A DNA stretch of 36,364 nt from Actinobacteria bacterium HGW-Actinobacteria-5 (GTDB lineage Bacteria > Actinomycetota > Actinomycetes > Propionibacteriales > Propionibacteriaceae), in contig PHEV01000041.1 in NCBI GenBank assembly GCA_002843035.1, positions 1 to 36,364 on the forward strand, written 5' to 3'. The notes beneath the pieces are model-generated. The model was not told where the DNA came from, searched no databases, and saw only the letters and a list, made by a program, of their open reading frames with translations. Of this stretch, positions 12,598-21,582 are shown piece by piece. The position numbers and the translations under genes are program-made. Each line of letters starts with the position of its first letter. Position 1 is the stretch's first letter.

Positions 12598-12611
12598 TGA
12601 GGGGGTCACTG

Positions 12612-14304
12612 ATGGTGCGCTTTCTATGACGTTCCCCAACTGAGGAACCTCACCGAACTTGCCGAGCGGGGGGCCGACAGGTACGGGACACGACCCGCGT
12701 TCCGCGAACTGGGACCGGATCGGGCCGTCCACGAGTACTCCTACCGGTCGCTGCACGATGATGTCGTCGCAGCAGGTACGGCGCTGCTCGACCAGGGGCT
12801 GGCCGGTGGCCATGTCGCCATGGTCGGCGAGGCCAGCTACGCCTACGTGGTCTGCTACCTCGCCGTGGTCTGCACCGGCGGCGTGATCGTGCCGCTGGAC
12901 AAGGAGCTCACCGACGCCGAACTGGCCGACCTGATCGTCCGCTGCGACGCAGACGCGGTGCTGTACGGCGACGAGCTGCACGCGGACATCGCAGGCATCC
13001 TCGCCCACTGCCCTCGGGTGCGCCTGACGGTGAACATCAGCCGTTACGCGCCCGAATCCCACCGGCCCGGCTTCGACGCCCTGCTGGCCCGGGGACGGCA
13101 GTTGCTGGCCGCCGGAGACACCCGGTTCGCCGAGGTCAGCATCGATCCGGACGCGCCGGCGGCGATCCTGTTCACGTCCGGGACGACCGGGCCGAGCAAG
13201 GGGGTGATGCTCTCCCAGCGGAACATCGTCACGGTGATCCATTCGGCGTTCTCGCTGTTCCGGTTCCCGCGAGTGTGCCTGTCGGTGCTGCCGATCAACC
13301 ACGCCTACGAGTTCAACCTGAACGTGCTCGGCTGCCTGTTCGACGGCATCACGCTGTGCTTCAACGACAGCATCATGCACGTGCGCGAGAACCTCGGACG
13401 GTTCCGCCCCGAGATGTCGCTGATGGTGCCGATGATCGTCGAGGCGCTCTACAAGAACATCTGGAAGGAGGCGGAGAAGAACCACATGACGGGGTACCTG
13501 AAGTACGCCGTCGCACTGTCCAACGGGCTGCGCACGATCGGTATCGACCTGCGCAGGGTCTTCTTCCGCCCGATCCTGGAGCACTTCGGCGGGCGATTGC
13601 GGGTGATCGTGTGCGGCGGCGCCCCGCTCGGCCCGGACGTCGTCGCCGGCCTCACGTCGTTCGGCATCACCGTGTACAACGGTTACGGGATCACCGAGTG
13701 CGCGCCGCTGATCTCCTCCAACTGCACCGTGCGCAGCGTGCCCGGATCCGTGGGCGTGCCGGTGCCCGACCTCGAGGTGAGGATCGGGGAGCCGGACGCG
13801 GACGGCACCGGGGAGATCCAGGTGCGCGGGCCGGCGGTCATGCTCGGCTACTACCGCGACCCGGTCGCGACCAACCAGGCGTTCACCGAGGACGGCTGGT
13901 TCCGCACCGGCGACCTCGGCCACCTCGGCAAGCGCGGCGCGCTGTTCATCACCGGGCGGCAGAAGAACCTGATCATCCTGCCGAACGGCAAGAACGTGCA
14001 GCCGGAGGAGATCGAGGAGGCCCTGCTCGGCGGCATCGCGTACCTGCGGGAGGTCGTGGTGCACGAGCTGGTCGACCAGACCGGTGCGCCGCGGATCGCC
14101 GCGTCCGCCTATCTCGATCCCGACTGGGTCGGCGGGGTCGGCTTCGAGGGGGCGCGTGCCCGCTTCGAGGCCGACGTGGCTGCCGTCAACCAACGGCTGG
14201 CCGCCTACAAGCGGGTCTGCCTGACGAACCTGCGTGAGCAGGAGTTCGAGAAGACATCGACCAGGAAGATCATGCGTCACCGAGTCGAAGGAGCCTTGGC
14301 ATGA
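12612..14304 (+). CDS. AMP-dependent fatty-acyl ligase (long-chain acyl-CoA/ACP synthetase type), apparent frameshift at codon 4
   Basis: Predicted to activate a carboxylic acid, probably a fatty acid, as acyl-AMP and pass it to the neighbouring ACP. Visible ANL-family motifs are FTSGTTGPSKG (P-loop, bases ~13172-13204), YNGYGITECAPL (A5), GWFRTGDLG (A7), QKNLIILPNGKNVQPEEIE (A8 hinge) and TSTRKIMRH with the C-terminal catalytic Lys. The frame used by all motifs has clear coding sequence back to about base 12624 (FYDVPQLRNLTELAERG) but no ATG, GTG or TTG there. ATG 12612, with an ideal AGGGGG (12600-12605) 6 nt upstream, reads MVRF and then meets a stop after one more codon. Removing one T from TTT 12621-12623 joins it to the body and gives about 563 aa. 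The first intact in-frame ATG is 12820 (494 aa), which would lose much of the N-terminal subdomain. It ends with an ATGA overlap with the ACP gene. Confidence 0.85.
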
Positions 14305-14537
14305 CGATGCTCGGCGCGATCACCAAGCTGGTTCGGGAGTACGTCGACGTCGACGACGACCAGCTCACCCGCGACACCGACCCGGTGCGCGACCTGCACC
14401 TGAACTCCTACGACCTGATGAGCATCATCGGCCGCCTGGAATCCGACCTCGGGATCGAGATCGGCGAACGGGACGTCCGCAGGCTGGTCACCCTCGGTGA
14501 CCTCGACGACTACATCCGCTCGAAGCTGGCGGCGTGA
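14301..14537 (+). CDS. Acyl carrier protein (discrete phosphopantetheine carrier)
   Basis: Carrier protein of 78 aa starting at ATG 14301, which overlaps the ligase stop as ATGA. The attachment motif is DLHLNSYDLMSI with the predicted phosphopantetheine serine at Ser36; the usual D-S-L is replaced by N-S-Y, a form typical of secondary-metabolite or D-alanyl-type carriers and not of the housekeeping FabF-linked AcpP. A helix-III/IV block (LESDLGIEIGERDVRRLVTLGDLDDYI, given as residues about 48-74) is acidic as expected. Position between an AMP-ligase and a PPTase indicates a dedicated carrier for the activated acyl group. The stop overlaps the PPTase start as GTGA. Confidence 0.92.
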   Translation: MTMLGAITKLVREYVDVDDDQLTRDTDPVRDLHLNSYDLMSIIGRLESDLGIEIGERDVRRLVTLGDLDDYIRSKLAA

Positions 14538-15121
14538 TCACCGCGAGCCTGTGCATCGACGAGTCGCTGGACTCCCCGCAGCGGCGGGAACGGGTCGCCC
14601 GGCGGCTGCTCCGCCGTGACCTGGTGACCGGGTTCGGGTTGCCCGACACCGAGCCCGTGCTGGTCCGCAACAGCTTCGGCAGACCGTCGCTCGCGGACCA
14701 CCGCGGAGTGCACGTGAGCATTGCCCACTGCACGGGCGGCGTTGCGGTCGCGTGTGCGGACGATCGGATCGGGATTGACCTGGAGAACCTGCGCCGGCGG
14801 GACCGCCACGCGGCGGCCCGGATGCTGGGAGGGGACGAGTGGGGCACGGTCGAGCGTGCGCCGGATCCCGACCGGGAGTTCTTCCGCTACTGGACGCTCA
14901 AGGAGAGCTACGTGAAGGCGCTCGGGGTGGGCCTGTCCTACCGCGTCCGACGGCTCACGGTGAGGATCGACGCCGACGGCGGTGCCTGCCTGGACCGGCC
15001 CGGCACCGAGGTGTGGCTCGACGAGCGCCAGCCGGGGTTCGTCGTGGCGCTGTGCCGGCTGCGCGGGGCGCCGGATGCCGGGCGGGTGGGCGTCCGGCGC
15101 GTGCGGTTGGCCGAGTTGTAG
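14534..15121 (+). CDS. 4'-phosphopantetheinyl transferase, Sfp type
   Basis: Transfers 4'-phosphopantetheine from CoA to the carrier serine, very likely of the adjacent ACP. The 195-aa product starts at GTG 14534, overlapping the ACP stop. Family motifs in order are a GRPSL segment and VHVSIAHC (P1/P2 region), IGIDLE with the Mg-binding Asp82 and Glu84, and FFRYWTLKESYVKALG with Trp120, Lys123, Glu124, Ser125 and Lys128. It is shorter than classical Sfp (about 224 aa) but has all catalytic positions. A private PPTase suggests the ACP is not served by the housekeeping AcpS. Confidence 0.93.
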   Translation: MITASLCIDESLDSPQRRERVARRLLRRDLVTGFGLPDTEPVLVRNSFGRPSLADHRGVHVSIAHCTGGVAVACADDRIGIDLENLRRRDRHAAARMLGGDEWGTVERAPDPDREFFRYWTLKESYVKALGVGLSYRVRRLTVRIDADGGACLDRPGTEVWLDERQPGFVVALCRLRGAPDAGRVGVRRVRLAEL

Positions 15122-15131
15122 GAGGTCTGGG

Positions 15132-15835
<704 letters not shown>

Positions 15836-15836
<1 letters not shown>

Positions 15837-18800
15837 TGCTGAGCCGCGCTCTGATCCGGGACGCGCTACGCGAGGTGCGCAACAACCCCGCCCGCTTCGT
15901 GTCCATCCTGGCCATCGTCGCGATCGGTGCGGGACTGTTCGTCGGGATCAAGGCCGCGGCTCCGAACATGAAGTACACGGCCGACCAGTACTACGACGCG
16001 CAGAACATGATGGACATACGTGTGCTGTCCACGCTGGGCCTGGTGCAGGACGATATCGGGGCCATCGCGGCGACCGAGGACGTGCGCGCAGTGCAGGCCG
16101 GCTACTTCGCCGACGTGATCACGACGGTCGGCGGGGTCGAGTACGTGTTCCGCGCCCACTCGCTGCCGGAGACTCTCGCCGGAGACGGCGACTCCACGCC
16201 GATGAACCTGCCCAAGCTGGTCGACGGACGCCTGCCTGCGGCGCCCGACGAGTGCGTCGTCGAGGCCAACCGCAACGTCAGCTTCCCGCTGGGGATCGGG
16301 GACACGATCGAGCTGACCTCGGGCACCACGGCTCCGGTGTCGGACACGCTGCACCACGACCGCTACCGGATCGTGGGCACTGTGGTCTCACCGGTCTACC
16401 TCACCTTCGACCACGGCGAGTCGAGCATCGGTGGGGGCCGGGTGAACCTGTTCCTGATGGTGCCGCACTCGGAGTTCGCCTACCCGGTGTACACCGAGGC
16501 CCTGATCACCGTGCAGGGAGCGCGGGAGCTCGACTCGTACTCGGCCGAGTACCGGTCCCTGGTCGGCCGGGTGGTCGGAAGGCTGCAGAACCTGGGCGAG
16601 GAGCGAGCTCCGCTCCGCCTCGCCCAGATCAAGCAGGAGGCCCAGGCGAAGCTCGACGAGGCCCGCAGCGAGCTGGACGCCGAGCGGGCGCGCTACGACC
16701 AGGAGATCGGGGCCGCGGAGAAGAAGCTCGCCGCGGCCCAGGACCAGATCGTCTCCGGACAGGCTGCGCTCGACGCGCGCCGTCAGGCGTTCGCAGAGCA
16801 GATCGCCGCGTCGGAGGAAACGATCCGGCAGTTCGACGCCCAGCTGCGCAGCGCGCAGGCCGTGTTCGAACAGAGCACCTCGAGCTACCACAAGCTGCTG
16901 GACCAGGTGGCCACGATCACCAACGGAGCCAAACAGGCGAAGGCGCAGGCCGAGGAGGCACTCGACGCGGCGGTGGAGAGCATCGCGCAGCTTCAGGACC
17001 TGCTCGACGACGACAACCTGACCGATGAGCAGCGGTCCGCGCTCAAGTCGGTGTTGGGCCAGCAGGAGCGGATCCGGGACGGGGCGCAGTCCGCGATCAA
17101 GGCCTCCAACCGGGTCGTGGCAGCTGCGGACAAGCAGGTCAGCAAGGCGAGGTCCCAGCTGAACTCGGCGAAGCGTCAGCTGGCGGCCGCCCGTGCCCAG
17201 CTCGACCGCGCCAAGGCGCAACTGGCTGCGGCGAAGTCGAAGGCGAACGCCGAGTTCGCCGCAGCGCAGAACCGGCTCGACGAGGCCCGCGCCGAGTACG
17301 AGGCCGGCATGGCCGAGCTCACCACGCAGAAGGCCGAAGGGGCGCAGAAGCTGGCCGACGGAGAACGGAAGCTCGCCGCGGCGCAGGACCAGATCAACCG
17401 GCTGAGCGCGCCCACGTGGTACGTCCTCGACCGGACGAAGCTGGCCAGCTACGCCGACTACGCCGCGACCGCCGACCGGATGGACGCGATCGCGCTGCTC
17501 TTCCCGGTGTTCTTCTTCGCGGTCGCCGCCCTGGTCTGCCTGACCACCATGACCCGCATGATCGACGAACAGCGCACCTCGATCGGTGCCTACAAGGCAC
17601 TCGGCTACGACCGAAGGGCGATCGCGTTCAAGTACGTCGCCTACGCCGCCCTGGCGAGCGCGGTCGGCGGCACGATCGGCGTGGCCGTCGGCATCAATGT
17701 CTTCCCACAGGTGATCTTCGACTCGTGGGCGATGATGTACCAGCTGCCGCCGATGGAGCAGGTTCCGCAGGCACCCCTCCTGATGGGTGCCGTCCTGGTG
17801 TCGATCCTGCTGGTCAGCGTCACCGCCTACCTCGGCGTCCGCAACGAACTGACAGCGGTCCCCGCCACGCTGATGCGGCCCAAGGCGCCCCCGCCAGGGA
17901 AGGTGATCTGGCTGGAGCGGATCCCGGAGCTCTGGCGGCGGCTCTCGTTCAGCCAGAAGGTGACCATGCGCAACATCTTCCGGTACAAGAAGCGGTTCTT
18001 CATGACCGTGATCGGAGTGGCCGGCTGCGCGGCCCTGCTCGTGGCCGGGCTGGGCCTGAGCGACTCGATCGGGAGCATCGTGCACCGCCAGTACGGCGAG
18101 ATCCTCGGCCAGGACATCTCGCTGCGGTTCACGCCCACGTCCACGCCTGCGGCCCGCACTTCGGTGCTGGCCGAACTCGGCCTCGACCCTCTGGTGTCCT
18201 CCACCCTGGCGGTCTCCGACGTCAACGCAACCGTGAAGGGGCCGTCGACGGACTTCGCGGCGTCGCTGGTCACGCCGATCGACGCCGACGACTTCGGCGC
18301 GTTCGTCTCACTGCGGACGAGGGAGGGCCAGTCCCCGATCGCGCTTCCGGCGCAGGGCGCGGTGATCTCCGAGAAGCTGGCAGCCGAACTCGGCGTCGGC
18401 GTCGGGGACATGATGGCCGTCGACCGGGGCACGGGGGCGTACCGGCAGGCTGTGGTCGCGGGCATCACGGAGAACTACATCTTCCACTACATCTACCTGA
18501 GCCCTTCGGCCTATCGCGAGGTGTTCGGGGCCGACCCGGAGTGCAACGGAGTGTTCGTGAAGCTCGCCGGCCATGACCGGGACGCGGAGACCGCTCTCGG
18601 CACCAGGCTGATGGGCGGCGGCACGGTGGCGTCGGTGAGCTACTACTCCGACGCGATCACGAAGTTCAAGGACACGATCAAGAGCCTGGACACGATCATC
18701 TGGGCGATGGTGATCTCGGCCGGGTTGCTCGCCTTCGTGGTGCTCTACAACCTCACGATCATCAACCTGAGCGAGCGCACCAGGGAGATCGCGACCATCA

Positions 18801-19087
18801 AGGTGCTCGGCTTCTTCAACCGCGAGGTGTCCAGCTACATCTACCGGGAGAACATCTTGCTCACCATCATCGGCGCGCTGGCCGGGCTCGGTGTCGGCGT
18901 GGGCCTGCACCGGGCGATCATGGTCTCGATCGAGCAGGAGAACGTGATGTTCGGCAACTACGTCTCCGGTTGGACCTTCGTCATCGCGTTCCTGCTCACC
19001 GTGTCGTTCGGCCTGGTCGTGAGCGTGTTCACCTACCGCAAGCTGACCGTCGTGAAGATGGTCGAGTCCCTGAAGTCGATCGAGTAG
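15836..19087 (+). CDS. FtsX/MacB-fold ABC permease with a long extracytoplasmic coiled coil
   Basis: Large permease of 1083 aa starting at ATG 15836, 1-nt overlap with the ATPase stop (GTG 15833 is an alternative). I read eight TM segments: TM1 at about residues 21-42, TM2-4 at 552-575, 600-628 and 646-670, TM5 at 720-745, and TM6-8 at 954-979, 1006-1028 and 1047-1067. The first outside region (43-550) contains a MacB-like periplasmic core domain to about 255 and then an Ala/Gln/Glu/Lys-rich coiled coil from about 260 to 522 with a short break near 370-440. A second outside core domain lies at about 745-953. This two-fold layout, FtsX domain repeated once, is that of single-chain mechanotransmission permeases that move lipids, peptides or lipoproteins out of the membrane. 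The coiled coil, if folded back on itself, would form a stalk reaching into the cell wall. Substrate is inferred from neighbours to be an acylated product. Confidence 0.92.
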
Positions 19088-19094
19088 GAGAGCC

Positions 19095-20468
19095 GTGCCC
19101 ACGCGAACCCTGTACGAGCTGACGCCGTCCCAGCAGCTGTCCATGCTGAACCGGCACTGGACGCTGCACAAGTCGATCGTGAACATCGCCACGTCGGTGA
19201 CCATCCACGAGCGTCTCGACACCGCTGTGCTCTGCCAGGCCGTGCGCGTGTGCGTGCTGCGGTGGGACTCCTTCGGGCTGCGCTTCGTCAAGGAGCACGG
19301 CGAGTACCGCCAGTACTTCGGACCGCGCGACTGCCTCTACGTCGAGCAGCACGACTTCGCGAGCGCGGCCGAACAGGAACGCCTGTTCGCCGAGCGCGCG
19401 GCGCGGCGGATCCCGCTCGCGCACGCGCCACAAGCCGGGTTCATCGTGTTCACGACGCCCGAGGGCCACACCGGCATCTTCAGCGTGATCAGCCACCTGA
19501 TCATGGACGCCTGGGCGATCGCCGCCTTCTACCGCGATGTCGTGGACGTGTACGCGGCGATCGTGGCGGGGGAGTCGCTGCCGAAGCCGCCGCGGGACCA
19601 CGAGCCGGTGCTGCAGCGGGAACTGGAGTACCTGCGCTCCGGGCGGAGCGAGGCCGACCGGGCGTTCTGGCAGGCGGAGTTCTCAGGCTCCGAGCCGCAA
19701 TTCACGAGCCTGAAGGGGACCACGCCGCTCGAACGGTACCGGCGGATCACCCGGCACCCGGACGCGCGGCAGTGCTGGACGCAGCACCTGCGGACGAAGG
19801 CCGACCACGTCGTGCTGGTGGTGGATGCCGCCGACGTGCGCGCCTTCCAGGCCTTCCTCGACCGCGAACACCTCTCCTCGATGCAGGCGCTGTTCGTGAT
19901 GGGCCTGCGGCTCTACCTGGCGAAGGTGAACGGCCGCGCCGAGGACATCACCCTCGGCGTGAACGTTGCGCGGCGGGCGACGCTCGTGGAGAAGAACTCG
20001 GGCGGGTGCCGTGTGCAGAACCTGACGCTGCGCATCGTCATGCCGGAGAGCATGACCTTCCGGGAAGCCGTGGAAGCCGTGGTGGAGAAGCAGGACACGC
20101 TGTTCCGGCACGCGGACTTCTCGAGCATGGAGATGCTCAACCTGCCGCACGAGCTCTACCGCGACCAGGGCTCGGTGCCAGGCACGGGGTACTACGACGT
20201 CCTGCTGACCTTCCAGCCGGTTCCGCTGTCGGTGGGGCACGGCTACACATGCACGACGGACTGGACCTGCAACGGGGCGTTCAGCCTGCCCGGCTACCTC
20301 ACCGTGATGGACGACGACGGATCCGGGGGTCTGCGCTGCTACTGGGAGCGCCAGGTGCACTACCTCCCGGTCCCGCTGATCCAGGACTGCCACGCGTTCA
20401 TGGTGCGGGCGCTGCGGGCCGGGGTGGCGAACCCCTCGGTCACGCTCGGGGAGTTGATGGACCTCTGA
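19095..20468 (+). CDS. Stand-alone condensation-domain (NRPS-type) acyltransferase
   Basis: Predicted acyl-transferring enzyme of 457 aa, the size of a single NRPS condensation domain with no adenylation or carrier domain attached. The start GTG 19095 is 7 nt after the permease stop, with AGGAGAG just upstream. The catalytic HHxxxDG motif is present as SHLIMDA: Ser133 replaces the first His, the key second His is His134 and Asp138 is kept, while Gly is Ala139. The C-terminal half shows a DFSSMEMLNLPHELYR segment and a PGYLTVMDDDG segment consistent with the second CAT-like lobe. Since the operon supplies an acyl-ACP, I infer that this protein moves the acyl group to an amine or hydroxyl acceptor that is not encoded nearby. 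Its 3' end overlaps the convergent esterase gene by 29 bp. Confidence 0.85.
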   Translation: MPTRTLYELTPSQQLSMLNRHWTLHKSIVNIATSVTIHERLDTAVLCQAVRVCVLRWDSFGLRFVKEHGEYRQYFGPRDCLYVEQHDFASAAEQERLFAERAARRIPLAHAPQAGFIVFTTPEGHTGIFSVISHLIMDAWAIAAFYRDVVDVYAAIVAGESLPKPPRDHEPVLQRELEYLRSGRSEADRAFWQAEFSGSEPQFTSLKGTTPLERYRRITRHPDARQCWTQHLRTKADHVVLVVDAADVRAFQAFLDREHLSSMQALFVMGLRLYLAKVNGRAEDITLGVNVARRATLVEKNSGGCRVQNLTLRIVMPESMTFREAVEAVVEKQDTLFRHADFSSMEMLNLPHELYRDQGSVPGTGYYDVLLTFQPVPLSVGHGYTCTTDWTCNGAFSLPGYLTVMDDDGSGGLRCYWERQVHYLPVPLIQDCHAFMVRALRAGVANPSVTLGELMDL

Positions 20469-21330
20469 CGTCGGCGTCCGTCGATCGGGGGTGACGCTGG
20501 AAGAACTCCCAGCTGAGCCGGGTGGCGTCGGGTTCGGCAAGGGTGGGGCCAGTGATCACCTCGGGGAGCGGCACGCCTCCCGGCCAGGTGTGCCCGCCGC
20601 CGGCGAAGGCGTACCAGACGACCTCGCAGTCCCCGCGTCCGCCGGACCACGTGGTCCGGCGGACGCGCGCACCGAGGTCCTCGGTCGTCGATGCCGTGCA
20701 ACCGCAGTGCCGGGCGTAGCCGTCCATCCAGTCGCGTGCGTCGGGCACCTGCCGTCCAAGGCGCCGGACGCCACCGGCGATCGGGATGATCCGGTCGAGT
20801 GCACCGTGGAACGCGATCAACGGCACGGGCCGCGGGACGGCGGGCCCCTCCGGGGCGAGGGTGTAGAGCCCCGACACCGAACTGGCGGCTGCGAAGGTGT
20901 CGGGCAGGGTGAGGACCAGGCTTGCGACCAGCCCGCCGCCGTTCGACATGCCGGAGGCATAGATGCGGTCACGGTCGATCGGGTAGCGGGACGCGAGGTG
21001 CTCGATCAGCGCAGCGATCGCGTCGACCTGCCGGCGGGTGGCCGGGGTCTCGCCGGCGTCAGCTGCGTCCCAGTGCGGTGGGATGCCCTGCCCCAGCGGG
21101 TAGACGGTGAGGAACCCCTCGCGCGCCGCGAGGTCGTCCCACCGGCTCATCTCGCGCTGGTGCCCCGGTGACTGGAGGAACCCGTGCAGGACGACGACCA
21201 GCGGCGAGGGACGGGTGAGGTCGTGTCCCGGCGGCACCTGGAAGAGGTAGCGCAGCGTGCCGTGGGGGCCGGTCAGGGAGTGGTTGACGCGGTAGAACCG
21301 GCGCACCCGGACCAGCCAGACGCTGAGCAC
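20440..21330 (-). CDS. PHB-depolymerase/feruloyl-esterase-like alpha/beta hydrolase (LpqC type)
   Basis: Secreted or membrane-anchored serine esterase. From GTG 21330 it is 296 aa. The catalytic triad is visible: Ser129 in GMSNGG, an Asp in FHGALDRIIP and a His in GGGHTWPGG. The N-terminal LVVVLHGFLQSPG segment carries the oxyanion region. The family cleaves polyester or aromatic ester bonds; the natural substrate is unknown. The frame stays open upstream of GTG 21330 and encodes a classic signal anchor (RAALVALAAATGVLSVWLV). A GAGGAGG site near 21407-21413 and a TAGGCT -10 at 21425-21430 would fit a start at about 21402, where the codon is ACG. The real protein is therefore probably about 320 aa with a non-standard or altered start. 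The 3' end overlaps the condensation-domain gene. Confidence 0.87.
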   Translation of the reverse strand: MLSVWLVRVRRFYRVNHSLTGPHGTLRYLFQVPPGHDLTRPSPLVVVLHGFLQSPGHQREMSRWDDLAAREGFLTVYPLGQGIPPHWDAADAGETPATRRQVDAIAALIEHLASRYPIDRDRIYASGMSNGGGLVASLVLTLPDTFAAASSVSGLYTLAPEGPAVPRPVPLIAFHGALDRIIPIAGGVRRLGRQVPDARDWMDGYARHCGCTASTTEDLGARVRRTTWSGGRGDCEVVWYAFAGGGHTWPGGVPLPEVITGPTLAEPDATRLSWEFFQRHPRSTDADVRGPSTPRA

Positions 21331-21582
21331 ACCCGTCGCGGCAGCGAGCGCGACCAGTGCGGCCCGGCCGGCCTGCCGTTCGGGAGCGTGGGATCCAGTC
21401 GTCGCCCCTCCTCACACGTCTCCCAGCCTAGACGTCAGGTGCCGTCGGCCGCGTCAGCGGCGGCGAAGCACCCGGGCCGAGAAGTGATGGGGGAAGGCGG
21501 AGCAATTGGCGAGGAGCCGGATCGGGGCGGGGAAACGAGCCGCGATCAGCAGAGCCGGCGACACTGCCGGACCCTCTGTGTT

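Follow-up and report, generated by a model that had tools for sequence, protein, structure and literature searches.

What does a condensation (C) domain do when it is encoded on its own, reads SHxxxDA in place of the canonical HHxxxDG, and lies behind the genes of an exporter? The question is raised by a gene in the window, by which we mean the whole stretch of 36,364 nucleotides from Actinobacteria bacterium HGW-Actinobacteria-5 that was analyzed. A first-pass annotation had given the coordinates of the open reading frame, the motif SHLIMDA, and the numbering of His134 and Asp138, all of which proved correct on re-reading of the sequence.

Gene arrangement

The C gene has a GTG start immediately preceded by a GGAG Shine-Dalgarno sequence, a GC3 of 0.95, and a product of 457 aa. 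It is the last gene of a series in the order fatty-acyl ligase, acyl carrier protein (ACP), phosphopantetheinyl transferase (PPTase), ABC ATPase, FtsX permease, and C, and an esterase gene converges on it. The features are as follows:

12621 to 12629, forward strand: TTTCTATGA, at the 5' end of the ligase gene
12640 to 14304, forward strand: stand-alone fatty-acyl adenylate ligase (A); PF00501, E = 2e-54; start codon uncertain
14301 to 14537, forward strand: ACP of 78 aa with the phosphopantetheine site HLNSYDL; PF00550, E = 5e-8; ATGA overlap with the ligase gene
14534 to 15121, forward strand: 4'-phosphopantetheinyl transferase; PF01648, E = 1e-14; GTGA overlap with the ACP gene
15132 to 15836, forward strand: ABC transporter ATPase of the LolD/MacB type, 234 aa; PF00005, E = 8e-34; LolD-like in NCBIfam
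15836 to 19087, forward strand: fused double FtsX/MacB-type permease, 1083 aa, with a long coiled-coil extracellular part
19095 to 20468, forward strand: stand-alone condensation domain of the fatty-acid-amide (FAA) type (OaaC-like, C_FAA); PF00668, OaaC match, FAA clade
19491 to 19511, forward strand: active-site motif SHLIMDA (residues 133 to 139, with Ser133, catalytic His134, Asp138, and Ala139)
20440 to 21330, reverse strand: alpha/beta hydrolase, PHB-depolymerase-type esterase; convergent with the C gene, with a 29-bp overlap at the 3' end of the latter

The GTG start of the ATPase gene, 10 nt after the PPTase gene, is fixed by a Shine-Dalgarno sequence and by a 234-aa orthologue in a Propionicimonas locus (L021). 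The ATPase and permease genes join in TGATG (15836), and the permease contains two FtsX plus MacB_PCD stretches together with SMC-like coiled-coil matches. Only 7 nt, with the GGAG, separate the permease stop codon from the C gene. As the genes overlap or nearly touch throughout, the arrangement places the C gene in the transcription unit of the ligase, and a location outside the operon of the ligase was rejected on the strength of these junctions. Free-standing adenylation and carrier proteins, which are expected near a C_FAA gene, are thus present in the same operon as the ligase and ACP. The first-pass annotation had described the location of the C gene as unusual. It is so in comparison with the clostridial order C-ACP-A, since here C follows the exporter, but not among relatives of the host: C lies directly 3' of the FtsX gene in every Propionibacteriaceae locus in which both genes are readable on one contig.

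The ligase, which scores 248 to 312 bits against clostridial FAA ligases and 116 bits against the best PDB ligase, has a peculiar 5' end. Its frame contains no ATG, GTG, or TTG start there, although homology reaches to about position 12622; the first in-frame ATG is at 12820, and with a start at that codon the PF00501 match begins only at profile position 53. A Shine-Dalgarno sequence and an ATG at 12612 open a different frame (ATG GTG CGC TTT CTA TGA). In the genes of the window, CTA accounts for 3 of 986 Leu codons and TTT for 2 of 315 Phe codons. The 9-mer at 12621 to 12629 and the frame arrangement recur identically in the Propionicimonas orthologue, while the ligases of two other loci of the family (L101 and L099) have normal starts. 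Either the ligase starts at the CTG at 12640 or a +1 shift occurs at TTT-C.

Family assignment

The C protein has one Pfam domain, Condensation (PF00668, residues 5 to 346, E = 6e-28), and its length fits the 300 to 520 aa of the stand-alone, single C domains grouped as C_FAA. A phmmer search of PDB sequences returned 12KH as the best match (145.5 bits, E = 2e-41, residues 4 to 456), while every other C domain scored at most 44.2 bits. This entry is OaaC according to the deposition in its paper (PMC13142362). Identity between the two proteins is just 25 to 27%, so that neither acceptor nor donor specificity can be transferred from OaaC. A profile search of the PDB with alignment A2 was left out of the evidence because A2 contains OaaC and the result would be circular.

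Two further analyses point the same way. An HMM built only from clostridial stand-alone FAA C domains and OaaC gave the window protein 323 bits, compared with 165 to 224 bits for the nearest N-terminal C domains of modular nonribosomal peptide synthetases (NRPSs), 117 bits or fewer for the remaining C domains, and 75 bits for EntF. In a maximum-likelihood tree of C domains with 90 rows, the protein fell inside a 27-row clade of stand-alone FAA-type domains (100/100). This clade adjoins the N-terminal NRPS C domains (99/97), and the window protein is outside the clade of the latter, in agreement with the published placement of FAA C domains in their own clade beside starter C domains (PMC13142362); we saw these neighbors mostly as N-terminal domains of large ORFs and take the label "starter" from that paper. 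Within the FAA clade, the six rows from Propionibacteriaceae group together (100/98), and two C domains of the rumen Clostridiales RUG806 are sister to them (100/95). The first-pass annotation had named placement in a noncatalytic epimerase or interface clade as an outcome that would speak against its reading; the phylogeny put the protein in a catalytic clade instead. On this sequence evidence the C protein is a member of C_FAA, distantly related, in an actinobacterium, to the enzyme with which gut bacteria couple fatty acids to small amines.

The relatives came to light only with alignments and with searches inside the right groups. A single-protein scan of contigs from close-relative genomes gave no match, and relatives emerged with alignment A1. 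An alignment of the window protein, a congener, and OaaC was run against 391 genomes from the class to which a rumen Clostridiales metagenome-assembled genome belongs and against 198 genomes of the window's own family, and the gene neighborhoods were read. Among 396 genomes across the phylum there was, besides the window, one match, a modular NRPS in G150, and relatives emerged on the within-family search. Plasmid records contained distant matches only (21 to 25% identity).

The active-site motif

SHLIMDA is not a chance match, as it aligns with the active-site motif in 26 relatives in which His134 and Asp138 are invariant; in alignment A2 these two and 17 further residues are invariant. Free-standing catalysis, which the first-pass annotation had thought plausible, is supported as such by the retention of the second His and the Asp in all 27 FAA-clade sequences. 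The changed first His and Gly, which it had treated as an anomaly, are ordinary for the clade. The residue after the Asp is Ser in 17, Ala in 9, and Thr in 1 of the sequences and never Gly, and the first residue is Asp in 16, Ser in 3, Asn in 3, Cys in 2, His in 2, and Tyr in 1; a clostridial relative (L088) has SHLVMDA. It had also held that homologues with a different catalytic motif would count against it, and the homologues differ at two noncatalytic motif positions only. In the published family, the second His (>99%) and the Asp are kept, the Gly position is Ser in 42% and Ala in 36%, and a D or H at the first position is typical but not defining (PMC13142362). His134, Asp138, and Ala139 agree with these published residues, while Ser133 departs from the typical D or H. 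Since the first residue varies inside the FAA clade, it is no defining feature of the family. All 8 members of the subclade that includes the window protein have S, C, or N here, against 0/19 of the others, which have D, H, or Y throughout (19/19). This would make the residue a mark of lineage rather than a catalytic requirement.

Studies of other C domains suggest why such a motif may be functional. In the RzmA starter domain it is the second His that positions the two substrates; the role of the first His and of the Asp appears to be structural, and the Gly is thought to make space for the donor (PMC7804268). An altered Gly accompanied a small acceptor in the fuscachelin C domain, and altered motifs are commoner where the acceptor is small (PMC8097023). 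Given these residue roles and this pattern, SHxxxDA is compatible with activity.

Conservation in the Propionibacteriaceae

The set of ligase, ACP, PPTase, ATPase, permease, and C with the esterase was found in four Propionibacteriaceae genomes: G000 and G027, both of the window's genus, G949 (L101), and G936 (L099), in the last of which the PPTase gene is displaced to the far side of the esterase gene. In G954 the cassette is split over two contigs (L123 and L102), and in G933 permease, C, and PPTase lie on a short contig; the genomes compared are mostly draft assemblies. Among the 198 family genomes, C domain matches (E <= 1e-25) and strong permease matches occur in the same six genomes, and two further genomes have a permease half only (31% identity). 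The esterase (E <= 1e-40) is present in 2 of 30 congeners, precisely those with the C gene, and adjoins the cassette also in L099, L101, and L123; its position shifts among genomes, yet it stays with the cassette.

The cassette locus (12598 to 21505) lies between genes for an HrpA-like helicase and a LysR protein, a variable insertion site. In seven of eight congeners examined the two flanking genes are adjacent with no cassette between them, and in the eighth (G017, L114) a sugar ABC transporter/LacI region occupies the gap. As some cassette-free species are nearer to the window's genome than G027 by helicase identity, repeated loss or transfer of the cassette is likely from these sequences.

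Two other loci were observed along the way. G949, which has a full cassette, also encodes a second FAA-type C domain (L100; contig C158, 8041 to 9828, reverse strand; 595-aa ORF, motif SHLAMDT). No ligase or ACP gene adjoins it, and the gene of an MFS_3 transporter lies at a distance of about 2.4 kb. In another genome of the phylum (G150, contig C45, L103), a similar ligase-ACP-PPTase series lies immediately 5' to the gene of a 2536-aa NRPS that begins with a C domain; this may be an intermediate form between FAA and lipopeptide pathways.

Proposed function and alternatives

From the family membership, the conserved catalytic residues, the operon structure, and the cassette conservation computed here, we infer that the C protein is probably an active C_FAA member with its own ligase, ACP, and PPTase partners, which would join acyl-ACP and a free amine into an N-acyl amide for export. 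The ligase would activate a fatty acid as acyl-AMP and load it onto the small ACP, itself converted to the holo form by the PPTase of the operon. By analogy to OaaC, the C protein would then acylate a small, freely diffusing amine, with acyl-ACP as donor, and release an N-acyl amide; His134 would position or deprotonate the acceptor, and the role of Asp138 would be structural. Export of this membrane-soluble compound would fall to the fused MacB/FtsX-type ABC transporter. The convergent esterase may break the compound down or remove acyl groups that were misloaded. That the operon has an exporter of its own suggests that the bacterium both makes and secretes a fatty-acid amide. A soluble acceptor, as proposed in the first-pass annotation, is probable, since OaaC, the closest solved relative, uses one (PMC13142362). 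Read gene by gene, the cassette contains none for making or recognizing a particular amine.

It is also conceivable, though we consider it unlikely, that a protein of the same family uses an acceptor other than a simple amine and forms an ester, an N-acyl amino acid, or another acylated small molecule. The subclade of Propionibacteriaceae and RUG806 is deep, sharing 25 to 29% identity with clostridial members, and is set apart by its first motif residue, as described above, but OaaC, its closest functional relative, makes amides and is reported to be selective for small amines. Ester formation, which the first-pass annotation had raised, found no pointer: the stand-alone, ester-forming "C-domain type II peptide synthetase" 4znm, which we take to be SgcC5, scored 24 bits against the 145.5 bits of OaaC. 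No PapA entry was among the 30 PDB sequence matches at E <= 1, and PapA proteins were outside the rows of the tree.

A starter (lipoinitiation) domain split from a larger NRPS, which would pass its acyl group to a carrier-bound amino acid encoded elsewhere, is a good deal less credible. The nearest relatives beyond the FAA clade are N-terminal NRPS C domains, mostly clostridial, and in fold searches with an AlphaFold model (mean pLDDT 76.5, two weak stretches, built on 7 sequences) ObiF1 and the starter C domains of RzmA and CDA ranked first. However, 12KH was absent from the matches of both fold searches (structure library to 2026-04-08), and as fold comparison alone cannot separate starter from FAA domains, sequence-based tests were used; these place the protein within the well-supported stand-alone clade. 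Starter domains are N-terminal in a multidomain NRPS with an acceptor carrier downstream, whereas we found a single domain, one ligase, one ACP, and no acceptor module in the operon, an arrangement conserved across genera, and a search of the window's own genome with the C protein gave no second match at E <= 0.001. That the protein is catalytically dead or noncondensing (an interface, epimerase-like, or scaffold member) because the canonical first His and Gly are altered is hardly tenable, given the catalytic His and Asp in 27/27 clade members, the activity of OaaC with DHxxxDS, the positioning of both substrates in RzmA by the second His, with a presumed structural role for the first His and the Asp (PMC7804268), and a match to the epimerase 2xhg at E = 0.06 only.

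The synthesis and secretion of an N-acyl amide is hence the reading that we prefer. FAA pathways have been discussed as gut-bacterial sources of human receptor ligands. A tentative extension, which we would not press, is that the subclade of Propionibacteriaceae and rumen Clostridiales differs from gut FAA enzymes in acceptor class, that the actinobacterial cassette is a dedicated make-and-secrete pathway for a new interbacterial acylated small molecule, and that the host-receptor effects of the gut versions are a side effect.

Comparison with known systems

Searches of the literature found no report of an actinobacterial or Propionicimonas FAA cluster, which is weak evidence, as most subscription papers were outside their scope; we are not aware of any description of such a cassette from actinobacteria. 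With the complete and conserved FAA cassette of the Propionibacteriaceae, which brings its own exporter, PPTase, and esterase, the family reaches into another phylum.

The starter C domains RzmA-Cs and CDA C1 have the fold (Z 36 to 38) and a fatty-acyl donor in common with the window protein. They differ from it in their acyl-CoA donor, their carrier-bound amino-acid acceptor, their place in a multidomain NRPS, and their HHxxxDG motif.

OaaC is the stand-alone C domain in the pathway of Coprococcus eutactus to oleoyl-aminovaleric acid; in vitro it joins the acyl group of acyl-ACP to a free amine, giving fatty-acid amides, and it is reported to select small amines (PMC13142362). The window protein resembles it as a full-length homologue with a single domain, a noncanonical motif that keeps His and Asp, and a stand-alone ligase and ACP as partners. 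It differs in its motif (SHLIMDA rather than DHRLMDS), its separate subclade, its GC-rich Propionibacteriaceae host, and an operon that includes a PPTase and an ABC exporter and has C last. A homodimer that hides the ACP site has been shown for OaaC only.

Nearest in the tree outside the Propionibacteriaceae are the C domains of RUG806 (L088 and L024), with SHLVMDA and CHMVMDA and about 25% identity to the window protein. One C copy is followed by ACP and PPTase genes, and upstream of C in L088 is an MFS transporter gene in place of the ABC/FtsX pair of the window. The RUG806 genome (G491) encodes three stand-alone C domains of the FAA type, each on its own contig; two are complete and one is partial.

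In gut Clostridia, whose FAA clusters PMC13142362 credits to a first report by Chang and colleagues, the order is hydrolase-C-ACP-A and the biosynthetic trio is the same, with a PPTase gene nearby in some. We found C-ACP-A in 17 clostridial loci, one with a PPTase gene between ACP and A, and an alpha/beta hydrolase gene before C in 11 of the 19 clostridial loci examined. This hydrolase is of another alpha/beta-hydrolase type, with no detectable similarity to the window esterase; as it precedes the clostridial C gene and the esterase stays with the Propionibacteriaceae cassette, a hydrolase recurs as a partner in both phyla. The clostridial loci examined showed no FtsX exporter next to their FAA clusters. 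What is new in comparison with the gut clusters is the dedicated MacB-type exporter and the gene order, and with a compact operon available for expression, the purpose that FAA lipids serve for the bacteria themselves becomes testable.
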